Notes under the pieces: generated by a model
The model's input: the letters and a program-made list of their open reading frames with translations, nothing else
Databases searched by the model: none
What the model was told of the DNA's origin: nothing
Program-made: the position numbers and the translations under genes
Part shown: piece by piece, positions 357-49,812 of the stretch
How the letters are laid out: every line of letters starts with the position of its first letter
Position numbering within the stretch: position 1 is the first letter of the stretch
From: a virus
DNA: 53,388 bases
IMG/VR virus record: IMGVR_UViG_3300015245_000011
Span: 1 to 53,388 of that record
Direction: 5' to 3' (one strand)

Positions 357-1451
357 ATGGCTGAGATCGACAGCGCCAGAACACTGACCGTCGTGTCGAA
401 TGGGTTGCAAGTCCGTGACCAGACGTCCGCACTGCCGCAAGTAGCCGACGTCATGGCCCGCATGGCCTGGATGACGGAGATGCGGCCGGTTATGCGGCAG
501 TATATTGAGCAGCACATGGACCCGGCGAGACATATGTATAGCTTTGAAAACAATCGCTATACGCCCCTCTCTAGGGCCACGCTGGGCGAGATGCTCGCTG
601 AAGGCAAAAAGCCGGCCCTCAATCAAGATGGGGTGCACAATCTGCTCTCCCTCTTTGACTGCTACGCAGACGTGGCTGACGTACTGGAAGAACGGGATAC
701 GGAGCAGTTCTATCACTGCCGTGTCACCGTGCGCTTTATCTCGTTTAGCTCTGGCAAGTGTATTGGCGTTGGGACTGGCTCGTGCACCACACGAGAATCG
801 AAATACGCCTATCGCTGGCTCTACACCAGTGAAATACCGAAAGGGACTGACCGTTCGCTCCTCAAATCGCGCACGTTCACCGGTCGCAACGGCAATGAAT
901 ATACGCGCTACCGCATGGACAATGAGGATATCGCGGATCAGGAACCGAACGTGTTGCAGATGGCGATCAAGCGTGCCAAGTCCTCTGGCGTCAAAGCCTT
1001 ACCCCTCGTCTCAGAGATGTTTGCGACGTTAGGTGATCCTGATGAAGAGAAAGTTGAGGGTGACGAACGCCGGCAACATCTCCTCACGCAACTGGGGACC
1101 TGGCTCCGTGGCATGAAAGTCTCGACGCGTACCAAGGCGATTTTGGCCATCTTTAGTGAACCACTCCGGATGACGGAGCTCGGGAATCTTGATGAAGAAC
1201 GGCTGCGTGTGGCGCTGCAACTTATTGAGATTGCAACGAAGCAGAAGGTGTCGTGGGAGTCGCCAACACTGACGACTGATCTCAAAACGGCACTGGCGAC
1301 GTCTGCAAAAGCCGCGAGTGCTGATCTCTTTGGCGATCCCTTGCCGACCACGAATCGTCAGACAGGTGAGATTATCGATGTCAACGCGATGCCCTTTGAC
1401 CAGGATGCCAGTGCTGCGCTTGACCGGGAGCTGGCGGAGGAAGAAGGCTAG
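357..1451 (+). CDS. Phage recombination protein, Rad52/ERF-like annealing family (putative)
   Basis: 364 residues. The central segment resembles the phage and bacterial family linked to single-strand annealing recombination: a sheet-like VTVRFISFSSGKCIGVGTG stretch, SKYAYRW near residue 150, and EDIADQEPNVLQMAIKRA near 190-207. The last motif parallels the NPDIADQVNTVLKMAKKRA signature of that family. The usual cysteine pairs between those motifs are absent here. The ATG at 357 is chosen over a GTG at 312 because GAGGAA precedes it by 7 bases. It lies between an exonuclease and a VRR-NUC nuclease, as expected for an exonuclease/annealase module. The family match is from motif memory, so the exact role is inferred. 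Confidence 0.6.
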   Translation: MAEIDSARTLTVVSNGLQVRDQTSALPQVADVMARMAWMTEMRPVMRQYIEQHMDPARHMYSFENNRYTPLSRATLGEMLAEGKKPALNQDGVHNLLSLFDCYADVADVLEERDTEQFYHCRVTVRFISFSSGKCIGVGTGSCTTRESKYAYRWLYTSEIPKGTDRSLLKSRTFTGRNGNEYTRYRMDNEDIADQEPNVLQMAIKRAKSSGVKALPLVSEMFATLGDPDEEKVEGDERRQHLLTQLGTWLRGMKVSTRTKAILAIFSEPLRMTELGNLDEERLRVALQLIEIATKQKVSWESPTLTTDLKTALATSAKAASADLFGDPLPTTNRQTGEIIDVNAMPFDQDASAALDRELAEEEG

Positions 1452-4542: not shown

Positions 4543-5079
4543 CTATTTGTCCGGTAGATTCTCCACCGCCACATACTTCAGCACATACGCTTTGGCAATC
4601 ACACTTTGCAGTAACGCGCACTCGATTTTGGCCCGGCGCATAATCGCTGGCAAGATATAGGCCGCATCGCGCTCCGAATCACTAATCAGATCGCCCATAT
4701 CCTGCGTGCGTTCAAACAAGGCCACGGTGAGTTCCTCTTCCTCCGCATCGGTCAGTTGCGACGGGGGGCCAATACGTGCGAGCAAATCATCCATGCGGGG
4801 CGTGTGGAAGTGCGTCAGTTCCTTGACCAGAATCGTTTGTAAGGCGGTGGAAATAGGCATCACCTTCTGATCAATCACCGCCAGAGACGTTTCGATTTTG
4901 ACCAGCCGCATTAAAATATCTTCTCGCTCATGGCGGGCTTGTTCAACCCGGTGTGCGGTATCCTCTACGATACGCTCCTGCGCTTTGTCACGGCGGGCGA
5001 GACTGGTCCAGTAGGCCACCGACAGAAAACTGATCAAGGCACTTAAGAAAACTAATCCAACTTGCCACCATTGAAACAT
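4543..5079 (-). CDS. Membrane-anchored coiled-coil protein, 178 aa
   Basis: One N-terminal transmembrane segment (WWQVGLVFLSALISFLSVAYW) followed by a charged helical domain (RDKAQERIVEDTAHRVEQARHERED) and a mixed helical C-terminus. It overlaps the next membrane gene upstream (stop 5052), so the two are probably coupled. A single-span protein with a long coiled coil beside another small membrane protein could belong to a lysis or spanin-like cassette, but no lipobox or holin signature proves this. Confidence 0.6.
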   Translation of the reverse strand: MFQWWQVGLVFLSALISFLSVAYWTSLARRDKAQERIVEDTAHRVEQARHEREDILMRLVKIETSLAVIDQKVMPISTALQTILVKELTHFHTPRMDDLLARIGPPSQLTDAEEEELTVALFERTQDMGDLISDSERDAAYILPAIMRRAKIECALLQSVIAKAYVLKYVAVENLPDK

Positions 5080-10142: not shown

Positions 10143-10162
10143 GCTACACTCCATAAGTGGCA

Positions 10163-10178
10163 CCGGGTTCGAAACCGG
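10163..10178. promoter_or_regulatory. Dyad in divergent intergenic region
   Basis: CCGGGTTCGAAACCGG is a near-perfect inverted repeat (CCGG arms around TTCGAA). It sits between the minus-strand Kelch fibre gene (start 10142) and the plus-strand HNH gene (start 10238). It could be an operator for either gene or a recognition site for the endonuclease (inference). It is not a tRNA. Confidence 0.4.
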
Positions 10179-10237
10179 GGCAGGGTTCATCGCCTGCCAG
10201 CCACATCCTCTGATGCCTTTGTGATGTAAGGAAGACC

Positions 10238-18464: not shown

Positions 18465-20930
18465 CTAGCGTGGCGTCACATCAAAGCGCAGCACCCCGCA
18501 GGCAGGGGTGATGGCGCCCGAGGCCGAATTATTAATCATGCGGGCGCGCACCGCATTGCCCCCGGTAATTTCCGCCGTCAGCACCAGGTCTTGTACCAGG
18601 GCACTGGCACACGACGCGGTGACAAAACTATTGGCCGCGGTGGTCGGATAGGGAGGTGTCGTAAAGACCGTGGTATTGGAATAGATCGCATCACTGATGG
18701 CAATTTTACAATTGGCATCGAGATTGTTCCACCCAGACCCGGTACACGACCCGCCAGCGACGCCCGCCGGAATCGCCGTCGTGCAATCATTATTGAAACA
18801 CACCATAAACGAGGTCGTCAGACGGGTATTGAGGGGCGACAACTCGGGACGTCCAATCGATGCATTGGCGCCGCTGCGCACATCCGCCGTAATGTAACCC
18901 GTATCGGGATTGGGAATCCACAGCGTGGAGGTAAAACTATCGGGGATAATGCTATCGAGGATGCGTAAGCCTTTGTTGACCTGCGCACAGGTCCCACCAC
19001 CACCGCACACGGTGGCGGTACAAACCCCGGCCCCAAACCCTAAATTCCCCCCACTCATGAGAAAATCGCAGTCGCTACTCGTGTAGCAGGTGCGCCCATT
19101 CCAGGCCCCGCCGACACAGAAACTGCCGCAGGCCGCGCCGTTATTGGTACACTGCGCTTCCGCCCAGACTTCCCGGGTGTCTTGCGGCATACAAATGGCA
19201 TCGCCGCCAGCGCAGGTGAGGCCTCCGGAGGTATTGGAGCACGGCGGATCGGTCGTTGTGCACAGCGCGCCGGCGTTCGCACCACTGGCACAGAGGCAGT
19301 GTTGCACGCCGGCAAAATAGGCCGGGGTCTGCCGCGTGCCGCGCAGATGCTCAATGGTCAGATTGCGCGTATTAATCAGGTTGAGCTTCGTGCGGGCGAG
19401 CGGGGTATTCGTGGCTGCGCCGTAGACCGGACGAATGGAGCCAATGTTGAAATCTTGCAGCTTCATATCATCGCTGGACTCAACATGGACGGTGGGACTG
19501 CGCGTCCCGCCTTCGGCCTGAAACATCGAAATGGTACAGCCGCCCGAGTTGAACAAATAGATTTCGTTATCTCTATTCGCCCCAAGCCCCATGTTGATAT
19601 CATTGAAGGACGTTTGCCCGCAGCGCCCCTGGTAAAAGGTAATGGGGCCACTGCGCTGCTGTCCCACCATCACATGCTCCACCCGGCTATATTCCAGGCC
19701 AAGCCCGTCAATGGTTTTAATATCGAGGCCCGTTGGTTCGGTGGTGGCGGTACGAAAGAGCACCGGGTTATACGGCGCATCACTCACCTGATTACTGTTG
19801 CGTACATCGACCCGCAGAAAGCTAAAATTGCACCCCCAACAGGTGGCGTTGTAATACATAATCCCGGCACTTTGGTAATTCGCATCGACCAGGAAATGCA
19901 CATGATCCATACTGAGCTGGAGGCGTGAGGACGTCCAGCCACTGCCACTGCCCGCCGTGAGCTGGTAGGCCGTCGCCTGGAACTTCAGCGCTTGCGTCCC
20001 GAGGACCTGGGGGAGTTCAAAACCCAGATTGCTGATACGCTGATTCCAGGCCGGCTGCGGATTAAAGGTCGTATAGCTCGCATCGCTAAAATGGGGCGCG
20101 TCTTCCGACCAGGTAATTTGACTGGTCCCCAGGGCGGTATCAAAGCTCGTGCCGCAGCCCATGAGCAGACTGGCGGTATCACTTTCGCCGACAAGCCAGA
20201 TGACGTTGTACTCATCTTTGCCGCCATAGGTGCGGGGCATGACAATCGAACTACAGCTTTTATAGAGCCCGCGCGGAAAATAGACGATGCCTCCCCGTGG
20301 GCTGAGACTGTCGGCTTGATCGGTACTGGCGCCGTAGGCGAGCCCGGTGCGTAAGCCATCGACGGCGGCCTGAATAGCCGCCCGATCATCATTGGTGTTA
20401 TTGCCAAAGGCGCCGTAGAGTGGATCGCGCACGCTGTAGCGTTGACTGAGCACCCAGGAGCGTGGGACGCGCAGATCATCGACGAGCGTAATGACCCCAG
20501 CGCTGACAAGAACGCGGGCAAAAATGACTGTGGAGGTTTGGGCGGCGGGTCTGGTCGCCGCTTTCTGCCAGAGATAGTGCGTGCCACGCTGCCGCGTCCA
20601 GGTACTGACGGCGGTACTGGTATCGCGGTGCAGGCCGAGCCAGTAAATCCCGTCACCTCCCGTCAGTGGCCCAAGGGTGGCGGCACTCTGCGTGACGTAG
20701 ATCAGGCTCAGCGTGCTGCCCTGCACGTAGCCCTGACAGGCAAAGGCGGCGAAGGTGGCTGACGAGGACGGCACAGGGGGTAAGCATCCTGACGTCTGAA
20801 ACGGCGCCAGGGCATCGCCAAAAAAGGCTTCAAGCTCGCGCTGCGGGTTGGGATCCCCATGCGTATTTCCTGCAAATGAACTATTGGAAAGTACAAAAAG
20901 AAGCATAGCCAGAATGACTAATCGTTTCAC
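18465..20930 (-). CDS. Tailspike with pectate-lyase-type beta-helix and signal peptide, 821 aa
   Basis: It carries a signal sequence (MKRLVILAMLLFVLSNSSFAG). From about residue 180 it shows the pectate-lyase-3/tailspike entry motif: YGAFGNNTNDDRAAIQAAVD followed by GGIVYFPRGLYKS. A long parallel beta-helix follows. A Cys-rich insert (about 540-660, more than 15 Cys) could form several disulphides, consistent with export. Such spikes cleave or bind surface polysaccharide. It starts with GTG at 20930; the CRISPR-like element at 20981-21001 lies 50 bases upstream in its leader. Confidence 0.75.
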   Translation of the reverse strand: MKRLVILAMLLFVLSNSSFAGNTHGDPNPQRELEAFFGDALAPFQTSGCLPPVPSSSATFAAFACQGYVQGSTLSLIYVTQSAATLGPLTGGDGIYWLGLHRDTSTAVSTWTRQRGTHYLWQKAATRPAAQTSTVIFARVLVSAGVITLVDDLRVPRSWVLSQRYSVRDPLYGAFGNNTNDDRAAIQAAVDGLRTGLAYGASTDQADSLSPRGGIVYFPRGLYKSCSSIVMPRTYGGKDEYNVIWLVGESDTASLLMGCGTSFDTALGTSQITWSEDAPHFSDASYTTFNPQPAWNQRISNLGFELPQVLGTQALKFQATAYQLTAGSGSGWTSSRLQLSMDHVHFLVDANYQSAGIMYYNATCWGCNFSFLRVDVRNSNQVSDAPYNPVLFRTATTEPTGLDIKTIDGLGLEYSRVEHVMVGQQRSGPITFYQGRCGQTSFNDINMGLGANRDNEIYLFNSGGCTISMFQAEGGTRSPTVHVESSDDMKLQDFNIGSIRPVYGAATNTPLARTKLNLINTRNLTIEHLRGTRQTPAYFAGVQHCLCASGANAGALCTTTDPPCSNTSGGLTCAGGDAICMPQDTREVWAEAQCTNNGAACGSFCVGGAWNGRTCYTSSDCDFLMSGGNLGFGAGVCTATVCGGGGTCAQVNKGLRILDSIIPDSFTSTLWIPNPDTGYITADVRSGANASIGRPELSPLNTRLTTSFMVCFNNDCTTAIPAGVAGGSCTGSGWNNLDANCKIAISDAIYSNTTVFTTPPYPTTAANSFVTASCASALVQDLVLTAEITGGNAVRARMINNSASGAITPACGVLRFDVTPR

Positions 20931-20966
20931 TAGACACCTAGAATAGACTGTGTTAAAGTACCAACG

Positions 20967-21061
20967 GCTCTGAAGTAGCTCCCTGGAAGGGATTGAAACG
21001 AAGATGAGCTCTTCTGTGATATCGGCCGTACAGGCAAAACGATATCCAGTTACTTCAGAGC
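20967..21061. repeat. 11-bp inverted repeat enclosing the CRISPR-like element
   Basis: GCTCTGAAGTA (20967-20977) and TACTTCAGAGC (21051-21061) are exact reverse complements, 73 bases apart. The CRISPR-like motif lies between them. The right arm overlaps the stop codon of the tail nozzle gene. The arms could close a long stem around the element in RNA, or mark the ends of a small inserted unit. Confidence 0.6.
20981..21001 (+). repeat. Solitary CRISPR-repeat-like element, copy A
   Basis: CCCTGGAAGGGATTGAAAC (20981-20999) followed by GA is shared base for base with 35178-35198. It has the two hallmarks of the 3' half of many type I/III CRISPR repeats: a short CCCT/AGGG hairpin and the ATTGAAAC end that becomes the crRNA 5' handle. 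Flanking bases differ between copies. No array follows. It lies in the 130-bp gap upstream of the tailspike gene. Confidence 0.65.
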
Positions 21062-22629
21062 TAAATCCTCATCGGTCGCGTCAAAGATTTCTGTGACAAT
21101 TGCCACTCGACGCCTCTGAGCGTCAGCGATCCTGCGCCGGTCAACTCCGTCCACAACACTTCGCCTGTGCGTCCAATATCCCAGAAGAGTTCGTCTTCGA
21201 TCTGCGCTTCCACTCCTGATCCTGGATACGCCTGGGCGGTAAGTGTGACGCGCTTGGTTTGCCTGACGTGTTGTGGCATCCGGGCTGGTCCCAAAACAAA
21301 ATCTCCCACCACTTGTTGCCCAGCGTAGATGGCAAAGAACTCCGCCAGAAACCGGCGCAGGTAGGCCCGACGCATCGGTTGCGGCAGCGGCGGAAAGCGC
21401 ACCTGCCAAGGAATCGGTACGCCGTCATCGCGCAGGTCCCCCGTAAAGATGCGTTGCACGGCGGGTTGGGCCGCGAGCCCGGCCTGCGTATAGGGCAGGG
21501 CGCCAGGTTCGAGGAGCAGGTTGCAGGTCGCCCAGGGCGTTGGAAAGGTACAGATGGTCCAGGCTTTCTTGGTCACATCGAACACGAACACTCGGTCAAG
21601 CCCGGTACTTTGCGGCGTCGACGGACAGGCGCAGATATAGAGCGGCGGATTTTGGGATTGCGTGGCGACCGAGAGATGCGCCGCAGTATAGTTGAGCCCG
21701 GTAATGTCGTCATGGCCAAAAATATAGGGCCGAATGTTGTCCGAAATGACCTGATCGTTGAGACCATTAAAAAGTGCAAAGCCGCGGTGCGTCAGACGGA
21801 TCATCCCGAAGTTCGGAATGAACTGCACGGTGCGCCCGGCAATACAACCCATATCCGTTTTCACCTGCGTAATCGTGGGCGCCGCGCTGCCGCCAAAGGC
21901 CCCTGAGGCTTGATAGGTTGAGAAGTCTTTAAAGAGCACTAGGACGTTATCCGGGGAAATCCCTGATTCTGCGATCGTAAAGACCCCGATGCCTGTGCCC
22001 GATTGCCCGTCATCCTTGGCTACAAAGAGCTGGTTACCCACGGGCCACGAATGAAAGTTTTCCACGTCACTCTGGCGTATCGACGAGGGGCCATCATAGG
22101 TCGACGTCGTTTGGGCCGTATTCCAGGCCCATACGGCGTTCTGGTGGATGACCATCCACTTGGCGCCAGGGATCATGTCTGCTGCTGGATCGGTCGGAAA
22201 GATGCTGAAGCTCGCGCCGTTGGTCACGTAAGGCACGGTATAGCCATCCGTCATGAGCGTCTGGTCCAGAAAATTCAGCATCGTGGGCGTGTCGTACTGG
22301 AGTGCAAACGTCCCCAGCAGCGTCCAGGGCGTCTCGCTGCGGTAGAGTTTCTGCGTGCCGTCCACTTCACTGGTAATACGCAGGCGAAAGATCGACCCAT
22401 TATTGAGAGAGAGCGAGTTGAGGTCCAGCACACTTACCACAGTCGCCGGGATCGTCGGTGGGGCTTCCACCGTGACCACCCCATCGCGGACCCGCAGTGC
22501 GCCCGTCTGATCGAGCAAAAAGTTCTCGCAGCGCAGCAGCTCAGTCGGCTTCAGCGTCCAGGGTGAGGCGACGGTGTTCAGGCCTCCACTGAAATCTGCT
22601 TTGGTGACTGGTTTCAGATTCTCAGGCAT
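21061..22629 (-). CDS. Tail nozzle / beta-propeller tail protein (P22 gp10 or T7 gp12-like), 522 aa
   Basis: An N-terminal segment DFSGGLNTVASPWTLKPTELLRCENFLLDQTGALRVRDG is typical of phage tail tubular/stabilisation proteins. It is followed by many beta blades (TQKLYRSETPWTLLGTFAL, HQNAVWAWN, MIRLTHRGFALFNGLND) expected of the nozzle propeller that closes the short tail. It lies directly after the adaptor gene, the expected order in podoviruses. Family assignment rests on pattern and order. Confidence 0.6.
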   Translation of the reverse strand: MPENLKPVTKADFSGGLNTVASPWTLKPTELLRCENFLLDQTGALRVRDGVVTVEAPPTIPATVVSVLDLNSLSLNNGSIFRLRITSEVDGTQKLYRSETPWTLLGTFALQYDTPTMLNFLDQTLMTDGYTVPYVTNGASFSIFPTDPAADMIPGAKWMVIHQNAVWAWNTAQTTSTYDGPSSIRQSDVENFHSWPVGNQLFVAKDDGQSGTGIGVFTIAESGISPDNVLVLFKDFSTYQASGAFGGSAAPTITQVKTDMGCIAGRTVQFIPNFGMIRLTHRGFALFNGLNDQVISDNIRPYIFGHDDITGLNYTAAHLSVATQSQNPPLYICACPSTPQSTGLDRVFVFDVTKKAWTICTFPTPWATCNLLLEPGALPYTQAGLAAQPAVQRIFTGDLRDDGVPIPWQVRFPPLPQPMRRAYLRRFLAEFFAIYAGQQVVGDFVLGPARMPQHVRQTKRVTLTAQAYPGSGVEAQIEDELFWDIGRTGEVLWTELTGAGSLTLRGVEWQLSQKSLTRPMRI

Positions 22630-30400: not shown

Positions 30401-30607
30401 CTAGCTCTTTCCCCCGCCAGGGAACTCTGGCTTCCAGTGATTGCCATGGCCTTCATCCCCACCACCAGCCGTAATCTGCGGCACGGTATGGCCTACCGGG
30501 TCCATAATGCCCAGTGGGTCAGGGGGAGTGCCAGCCATTGGGGAACGCACGGTTGCGTGATGGACGCCAGTTTCATAGAGCGGACTCACGATTTCGACTT
30601 CAGCCAC
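30401..30607 (-). CDS. Small acidic protein, 68 aa, GTG start
   Basis: Not recognised. The GTG at 30607 is chosen because AAGGAG lies 6 bases upstream; the longer frame to 30673 has no ribosome site. Sequence VAEVEIVSPLYETGVHHATVR is beta-like, followed by a Gly/His/Pro-rich tail. It lies 2 bases before the Pro/Gly-rich gene. Confidence 0.55.
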   Translation of the reverse strand: MAEVEIVSPLYETGVHHATVRSPMAGTPPDPLGIMDPVGHTVPQITAGGGDEGHGNHWKPEFPGGGKS

Positions 30608-30703
30608 GGTGTTCTCCTTGTTATGTTTGTGGCGAGGCCAGCCCATATTCTGGGGGAAGATAGCTGGCCTCACCCCTAAAGCCGCGGGCTCCCGCAGCTC
30701 CAG

Positions 30704-34288: not shown

Positions 34289-34357
34289 GAACACCCACCC
34301 CTGAACAACTTAAAGAGGGTACATATTCAACACAGTCATTCATGTACAGCAAACGCA

Positions 34358-34413
34358 TGCATGCAAAAGATCCATGCATAAACACTCGCATGAAACTCTT
34401 GCATGCAAAAGAT
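34358..34413. repeat. Direct repeats TGCATGCAAAAGAT, two copies
   Basis: The 14-base unit occurs at 34358-34371 and 34400-34413, exactly 42 bases (four helical turns) apart, within a gap (34289-34512) rich in ATGCAT/GCATGC words. Likely protein-binding sites in front of the leftward gene at 34288. Related words occur in the control region at 41.1 and 41.97 kb. Confidence 0.55.
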
Positions 34414-34512
34414 TTACATACACACATGCGCATGCATTGAGATAACTCATATTCTATGAGCCTACAGAGAAAAAACAGTACGAGTCATTTTTTCTATGCA
34501 TGTGCATGCATG

Positions 34513-35097: not shown

Positions 35098-35116
35098 GAT
35101 GTTTGCAACCTATAAC

Positions 35117-35125
35117 ATTATAGCA
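35117..35125 (-). promoter_or_regulatory. Extended -10 promoter (TGCTATAAT)
   Basis: Minus-strand TGC followed by TATAAT (35122 to 35117) is a perfect extended -10 element, 20 bases ahead of the start at 35097. The -35 is weak. A CTATAA/TTATAG dyad overlaps it, similar to the operator at 290-306. Confidence 0.5.
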
Positions 35126-35177
35126 TTGTGCCATCTTTACAAAGGATGCTATGCTCCTTCTGGGCGTGGCTACGGTA

Positions 35178-35198
35178 CCCTGGAAGGGATTGAAACGA
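35178..35198 (+). repeat. Solitary CRISPR-repeat-like element, copy B
   Basis: Identical over 21 bases to 20981-21001, including the CCCT/AGGG hairpin and the ATTGAAAC end. It lies 2 bases beyond the stop codon of the zinc-ribbon gene at 35201-35440, and about 55 bases upstream of the promoter at 35117-35125. No further repeat copies or spacers follow. Confidence 0.65.
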
Positions 35199-35200
35199 TC

Positions 35201-35440
35201 TTAGCGTACGACGGTACGGTACGTTCCCGTACCGTTGCCGTACCCACCGCCCACGGCGTTAGCGCGGCCATCATCTCGTGCACCAGCGCCCATGGTCCCG
35301 CCGGTTTTGCTCTTGGTGACAAAGCGCAGCGTGCCGCAGGTTGGGCACTCGAAGGAATTCCCCGTTTCAAACTCTTTACGGAACACCATCTGGTGACGGC
35401 CGCGGGAATGCTCGATGCAGGATGGACAGACGATCGTCAT
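35201..35440 (-). CDS. Zinc-ribbon protein, 79 aa
   Basis: MTIVCPSCIEHSRGRH, then FECPTCGTLRFV: two CxxC pairs about 30 residues apart, a standard zinc ribbon, followed by a Gly/Thr-rich tail. The ATG at 35440 is preferred to 35458 because GGAGG precedes it. The tail is encoded by a CGTACC-rich stretch that also forms an 8-bp DNA hairpin (35216-35235), so its sequence may be shaped by that structure. Confidence 0.6.
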   Translation of the reverse strand: MTIVCPSCIEHSRGRHQMVFRKEFETGNSFECPTCGTLRFVTKSKTGGTMGAGARDDGRANAVGGGYGNGTGTYRTVVR

Positions 35441-35601
35441 AGGGTGAAACCTCCCCAAGAAGTAGGGAGGGAGGGCTCGACCACCGCATGGTGTGGATCA
35501 CAGGGCAGGAGCCGATATCCCAGTGGAGGGCGTACATCTCAGGCGTGCGACTGAGAGAGCCGGTGTCCAGCGCTAGGATAGTAGCATACGGATGCGGTAT
35601 T

Positions 35602-49652: not shown

Positions 49653-49812
49653 AAAGGGGACAAGAACAACAAAGTCCTAGACACAAGGGGACTAGGGTGG
49701 TAGAGTAGAGGCTCTTGCGTTACCAAGGCGCGGCTAGGTTGATCACCGAACGCTGGAATTTCCCGCCAGCTGCCGCGCCTCTATCATCAGGGAAACGTGA
49801 AGGGAACACGTC

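Follow-up and report, generated by a model that had tools for sequence, protein, structure and literature searches.

The window, by which we mean the whole stretch of DNA analysed, is a complete virus record of 53,388 bp with a 77-bp end repeat, in which the late genes read leftward. Two short intergenic gaps between leftward genes each contain the same CRISPR half-repeat, which reads rightward on the opposite strand (copies A and B). Copy A and the sequence around it (unit A) lie between a tailspike-like gene and a second gene of the late/tail region, with the following features:

18465..20930 (-): tailspike-like gene with a pectate-lyase fold domain (PF12708, E = 1.9e-07), adjoining unit A
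20931-21060: short intergenic gap containing copy A (+), between leftward genes
20931..20959 (+): promoter-like site TAGACA-17-TAAAGT with extended TG, a consensus match only
20966..20980 (+): 5' arm of the closing stem of unit A, pairing with 21048-21062
20981..20999 (+): copy A, a CRISPR half-repeat identical to the 3' half of genuine-array repeats
20981-20991 (+): hairpin of copy A, CCCT-GGA-AGGG
20992-20999 (+): 8-nt handle of copy A, ATTGAAAC
21000..21035 (+): putative 36-nt guide (spacer) of unit A, GAAGATGAGCTCTTCTGTGATATCGGCCGTACAGGC, directly 3' of copy A
21048..21062 (+): 3' arm of the closing stem, pairing with 20966-20980
21061..22629 (-): 522-aa gene of the late/tail region, which holds the guide-matching sequence of unit A
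21163..21198 (-): the phage's own guide-matching sequence, inside gene 21061-22629, with ATC and not GTH as 5' neighbour

Gene 21061-22629 had no family match, and its relatives in IMG/VR comprised one new contig (L173), which, to judge from the aligned residues, stops short of the guide-matching site. The annotated phage collection contained no DNA relatives of unit A, and its nearest terminase relatives (<30% identical) name no host. Rfam returned no family at copy A or copy B; elsewhere in the window it matched an int-alpA RNA (RF02996) at 49727-49792 (+) with 40.6 bits.

The 21-mer CCCTGGAAGGGATTGAAACGA occurs exactly at 20981-21001 (+) and 35178-35198 (+), with no third copy in the window at up to three mismatches and none expected by chance (100 dinucleotide shuffles). 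A preliminary description had reported these two identical occurrences of 19 bases plus GA, together with a CCCT/AGGG hairpin and the lack of any array beyond either copy. Both occurrences were confirmed as exact, but the repeat itself comprises the first 19 nt only, the GA being the start of two different downstream sequences. The hairpin also folds as described, with 4 bp followed by the handle, and a single half-repeat is present at each site. Copies A and B are truly solitary repeat-like units in intergenic gaps, as RNA anti-CRISPRs (Racrs) are; they share 19 nt only, and a complete 36-37-nt repeat with its 5' half is not present.

With the last 18 nt of the half-repeat as query, we then scanned 84,980 genomes of bacteria and archaea and detected true arrays in four taxa, including Moorella and Desulfacinum, while the other matches were single and many of them lay in the coding context LEGIET. 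The repeats of these genuine arrays are 36-37 nt long; the 3' half coincides with the phage element, and the 5' half differs. A Cas4-Cas1d pair (cas4-cas1d, type I-D) adjoins the Moorella array, and a fused Cas4/Cas1 adjoins that of Desulfacinum. The 19 nt therefore correspond to the 3' half of a type I repeat, namely a Cas6-type hairpin and an 8-nt handle, and the proposed match to half of a known CRISPR repeat was borne out in all four taxa. The argument built on it, that conservation of this half alone points to a mimic, did not hold, because genuine arrays of different bacteria likewise keep the 3' half and vary the 5' half. The 5' half of a phage mini-array described below was absent from the arrays of all four taxa in the same scan, and no host was therefore assigned. 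Among viral sequences, CCCTNNNAGGGATTGAAAC was found in 70 stretches compared with 6 for the reversed pattern (~12-fold), and many of these stretches look cyanobacterial.

The 36 nt that follow copy A matched positions 21198-21163 (-) at 30/36, the best match in the whole genome, while shuffled guides reached at most 24 matches anywhere in it. The homology extends from the first base after the handle to base 36 and keeps the reading frame; the six differences all occupy third codon positions (EDELFCDIGRTG vs EDELFWDIGRTG), and four of them lie at guide positions 6, 18, 24, and 30. To judge from this pattern, the guide looks like a spacer from a related phage's version of gene 21061-22629. A Racr would carry no functional guide after its repeat, whereas copy A is followed by this gene-derived sequence of 36 nt; moreover, the carrier's own site is altered (ATC for GTH, and six mismatches), as is seen where viral mini-arrays avoid their own genome. 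Searches of IMG/VR for the exact or degenerate protospacer returned only the near-identical contig L005, and no relative with the exact protospacer. The guide-homology pattern, like the PAM pattern below, was noticed during the analysis and not predicted beforehand.

Copy B lies in the following setting:

35098-35200: short intergenic gap containing copy B (+), between leftward genes
35121..35195 (+): approximate insertion with copy B, absent from relatives G004 and L061
35161..35177 (+): 5' arm of an inverted repeat around copy B, pairing with 35230-35246 (p = 0.02)
35178..35196 (+): copy B, the same CRISPR half-repeat as copy A
35197..35232 (+): 36-nt stretch following copy B, antisense to the 3' end of small gene 35201-35458 (-)
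35230..35246 (+): 3' arm of the inverted repeat, pairing with 35161-35177

Compared with G004 and L061, the window has ~74 extra bases at this site. The fold as a whole is not unusual (z = -0.7), and the 36 nt after copy B had no independent guide match; at the same position in two relatives, they matched at 22/36 and 20/36, beside ATA and AGA (not GTH). Copy B may be a decayed unit or a decoy. In another non-coding gap, at 34351-34434, we observed a tandem pair of 42-nt copies (74% alike) in which GCATGCA / CATGCA motifs are abundant.

Six further virus contigs contain the 19-mer, two of them duplicates of phages already in the count. The preliminary description had proposed looking for the element in relatives at non-orthologous positions; solitary units did occur there at different loci, with clean empty sites. 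G004, which belongs to the family of the window, carries a unit of its own in a different gap, which corresponds to window 30622-30678, and the element lies at a different place in each of G001, its relative G002, and G005, a relative of G002. G001 carries a true four-repeat mini-array, in which the repeat consists of GTCTCAAAACCGTAGCAG and the 19 nt. Two-sided repeats around a spacer were present only in the relatives G001, L085, and L148, and not at A or B. Independent soil lineages are few (the window/G004 family; the G001/G002/G005/L136 group; and L085/L148, which have a weak protein match to G005 only).

Several further observations concern these phages. A stretch of 53 bases at window 10156-10208 is 96% identical to G001 4912-4964, inside a tail gene, which is a possible recent exchange given that both phages are otherwise unalignable as DNA. 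In L136, a relative of G001 and G002, the half-repeat core is tandemly duplicated at 728-743 (-) (GGAAGGGATTGAAAGGAAGGGATTGAAAC) and accompanied by a degenerate second repeat (CCCTGCAAGGGATTTAAAT), in the same gap as the G001 mini-array. In L085, L148, and G005, 0-1 base separates the half-repeat from the ATG of the following gene, for which GGAAGGG may double as a ribosome-binding site.

Guide-like homologies recurred in the sister units. The G004 guide encodes HHATVRSPMAGT, the same peptide as its window orthologue, with silent differences only:

30527..30562 (-): window orthologue of the site matched by the G004 guide (27/36, PAM GTC)

The G002 guide matched G005 at 28/36 and its own gene at 25/36, and the G005 guide matched G002 at 28/36, a homology that is partly trivial because the G005 guide is the start of its own adjoining gene. 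The L085 guide matched a related virus, L148, at 32/36. In G004, G002, and L085, the target gene adjoins the unit. The remaining spacers of G001, L136, and L148 had no match, and a guide match in L119 was dropped, since the sequence lies after the last repeat of the array and could be shared flank. Cyanophage L080 guides matched the 3' half of a phage tRNA-Met (35/36 in L108, GTC); as the homology passes the 36 nt to the end of the tRNA, this sequence is possibly a tRNA remnant. Four solitary repeats (L080:1408, L086:670, L095:3311, and L118:2832(-)) are likewise followed by a match to the contig's own tRNA-Met 3' half, with GTC at the PAM position of the tRNA. A different arrangement was seen in probable cyanophage contigs (L079:1034, L080:188-206(-), L081, L082, L089, L092, L094, and L131), in which a 27-bp near-perfect stem (GGCCCACCACAGGCCCACAACAGCTAA...) surrounds CCCTACTAGGGATTGAAAC with ~20-42 nt after the handle; from their sequence, these units are strong candidates for a stem-clamped RNA anti-CRISPR.

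We further examined the three bases directly 5' of the matched sites. GTH is the PAM of Microcystis type I-D (PMC7648086) and GTN that of Synechocystis type I-D (PMC10212523). GTH was present at 6 of the 9 sites counted, to which unit A contributes its own copy (ATC) only, against a background of 3.9%, so that by our arithmetic the chance of 6/9 is ~3e-7:

GTH sites: G004 to window, GTC; G002 to G005, GTA; G005 to G002, GTC; L085 to L148, GTC
GTH sites of cyanophage units: L080 to L108 tRNA, GTC; L095 to L094, GTT
Non-GTH sites: unit A own copy, ATC; G001 S2 on its own genome, CTT; a weak L100 match, GTG

In an alignment, the orthologous site of L085 itself had diverged and had GTG. The ATC of unit A and the GTG of L085 at their own sites fit guides directed against others and not against self.

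The 11-bp inverted repeat previously described around copy A is real, but longer (20966-20980 / 21048-21062), with 15 pairs including two G-U. We defined a closing stem as the sequence just upstream of the half-repeat pairing with a stretch beyond or within the guide, and compared it with random stretches of the same genome. Such a stem was significant in four of the five single-repeat units (A, p = 0.002; G004, 0.001; G002, 0.005; B, 0.02; G005, 0.23) and in none of nine mini-array units (p 0.17-0.97). The fold of 20964-21063 reached z = -6.25, and whole-unit RNA folds were exceptional in A (-6.3), G002 (-4.4), and G004 (-5.1), but not in B or G005. We infer that the closing stem may take the place of a second repeat, in that it protects the ends of the RNA or defines them. 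The promoter-like site at 20931..20959 is the only one in 20850-21200 (0.3 expected); it ends seven bases upstream of the 5' arm, near which it would start an RNA. We also considered a shared mobile element (MITE-like) as a source of the units and rejected it, because the units have only the 19 nt in common, with different arms and different 36-nt sequences.

Taken together, we consider it likely that copy A belongs to a minimal phage-borne crRNA gene that uses host Cascade against a coinfecting relative. A short RNA would start near 20966, fold into the stem-clamped form, and offer the hairpin CCCTGGAAGGG to host Cas6, which would cut at the hairpin base to give the 5' handle ATTGAAAC and the 36-nt guide, with 3' trimming completing the product. 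A second repeat would be unneeded, since the cut falls at the hairpin base and trimming follows. In type I-D systems, crRNAs carry an 8-nt 5' handle and a spacer that is mostly 35 nt long, and their 3' ends undergo trimming in the natural host (PMC10212523); on this form, one hairpin-plus-handle with 36 nt would in principle be enough for a mature guide. The predicted RNA of unit A is 40-60 nt long and begins ATTGAAACGAAGATGAGC, and host arrays are expected to have repeats like GTCTCAAAACCGTAGCAGCCCTGGAAGGGATTGAAAC. Host Cascade, presumably of type I-D in view of the PAM, would then be directed against a relative in which gene 21061-22629 has both the guide match and GTH. The carrier would escape, since its own copy differs from the guide at six positions and has ATC where the PAM would be. 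In archaeal viruses, mini-arrays with two repeats have been shown to act against coinfecting relatives (PMC6858448; PMC11656645), and by analogy such an attack is the most likely action of unit A.

A purely decoy role, which the preliminary description had favoured for copy A, would have the half-repeat RNA occupy Cas6/Cas7 and poison effector assembly, with the downstream sequence irrelevant. Solitary phage repeats are known Racrs (PMC10651486), the stem-clamped form would suit a stable decoy (cyanophage L079 has a 27-bp stem and only ~20 nt after the handle), and no guide was recognised for copy B. This account is nevertheless unlikely for unit A, given that copy A and four sister units have gene-derived, spacer-length sequence directly after the handle, most of it homologous to sites beside the type I-D-like GTH, which a decoy does not need. 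It is also quite improbable that the units are functionless fossils of viral mini-arrays or host arrays captured by recombination: the 5' repeat halves have eroded, the last base of some repeats in mini-arrays is T or G and not C, and L136 has its partly duplicated half-repeat, but unrelated phages have the same intact hairpin and handle in surroundings that all differ, and a closing stem and promoter-like site would not be kept.

Type I complexes tolerate mismatches at every sixth guide position. Tolerance at position 6 is documented (PMC10212523), and four of the six mismatches of unit A fall on such positions, so that its 30/36 match could suit a CreA-like regulator, in which a partly complementary crRNA leads Cascade to the phage's own neighbouring gene and represses it without cutting. 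We regard this as very improbable, since the own PAM position is ATC, the guide of L085 fits the relative L148 (GTC) rather than the copy in L085 itself, and the matched sites lie inside genes, not at promoters. As for an origin by chance or as a non-CRISPR signal that looks like a repeat (promoter, ribosome-binding site, or protein-binding site), GGAAGGG can act as a ribosome-binding site in the three phages with an ATG next to it; yet copies A and B are antisense to genes, the element is exactly the repeat of real arrays, its excess over the reversed control is ~12-fold, and G001 has a true mini-array, which makes such an origin barely credible.

If the minimal crRNA gene is real, a CRISPR guide gene of only ~95 bp, with one 19-nt half-repeat, can be functional, and some of the solitary repeats now regarded as candidate anti-CRISPRs may instead be weapons directed at rival phages. 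More tentatively, and with rather low confidence, the stem-clamped half-repeat crRNA genes of soil phages might form a CRISPR-based homing or marker-exclusion element that runs on host Cas proteins. The unit would sit beside a resistant allele, a rival would be cut at the same locus during coinfection and repaired from the carrier, and repair would copy guide and resistant allele together, so that the pair would spread like a homing endonuclease. If true, this would explain the closeness of guide and target in archaeal virus mini-arrays and turn that closeness into a testable hypothesis.

Among known systems, CreA/CreR are degenerate single-unit crRNA-like genes with a partly matching guide, and are host-encoded regulators of a toxin promoter. 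Unit A has a partly matching guide as well, but is phage-encoded and matches coding sequence. The mini-arrays of the Saccharolobus portogloboviruses SPV1/SPV2 (Medvedeva et al. 2019, PMC6858448) are similar in that a host-type repeat occurs in a virus without cas genes, with a guide aimed at relatives and the virus's own orthologous site altered, as we propose for unit A. The target is also close to the unit, a proximity that the authors call unexplained. SPV1/SPV2 differ in that their 1-2 spacers have a repeat on each side and are accompanied by a leader, whereas unit A has one 19-nt half-repeat and no host-like leader; furthermore, the single-repeat units are closed by a stem and occur in phages of soil bacteria, with the mismatched own copy present in the same genome. 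The Acidianus two-tailed virus mini-array (cited in PMC6858448) likewise has one guide in a virus without cas genes, but its spacer is flanked by complete repeats on both sides, unlike that of unit A. With the solitary repeat units reported as Racrs (Camara-Wilpert et al. 2023, PMC10651486), copy A shares a single intergenic unit with a Cas6 hairpin and 5' handle, and a position just downstream of a predicted promoter, which is frequent among them; it differs in that the downstream 36 nt are derived from a phage gene and spacer-sized. That survey applied a cut-off of 41.1 bits (PMC10651486), and by our estimate a 19-nt match would probably fall below it, so that units this small were probably missed. 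Overall, from its sequence, unit A is proposed to work like a virus-borne mini-CRISPR array without the two-repeat layout that defines one, and copy A is solitary like a Racr but accompanied by what looks like a guide.
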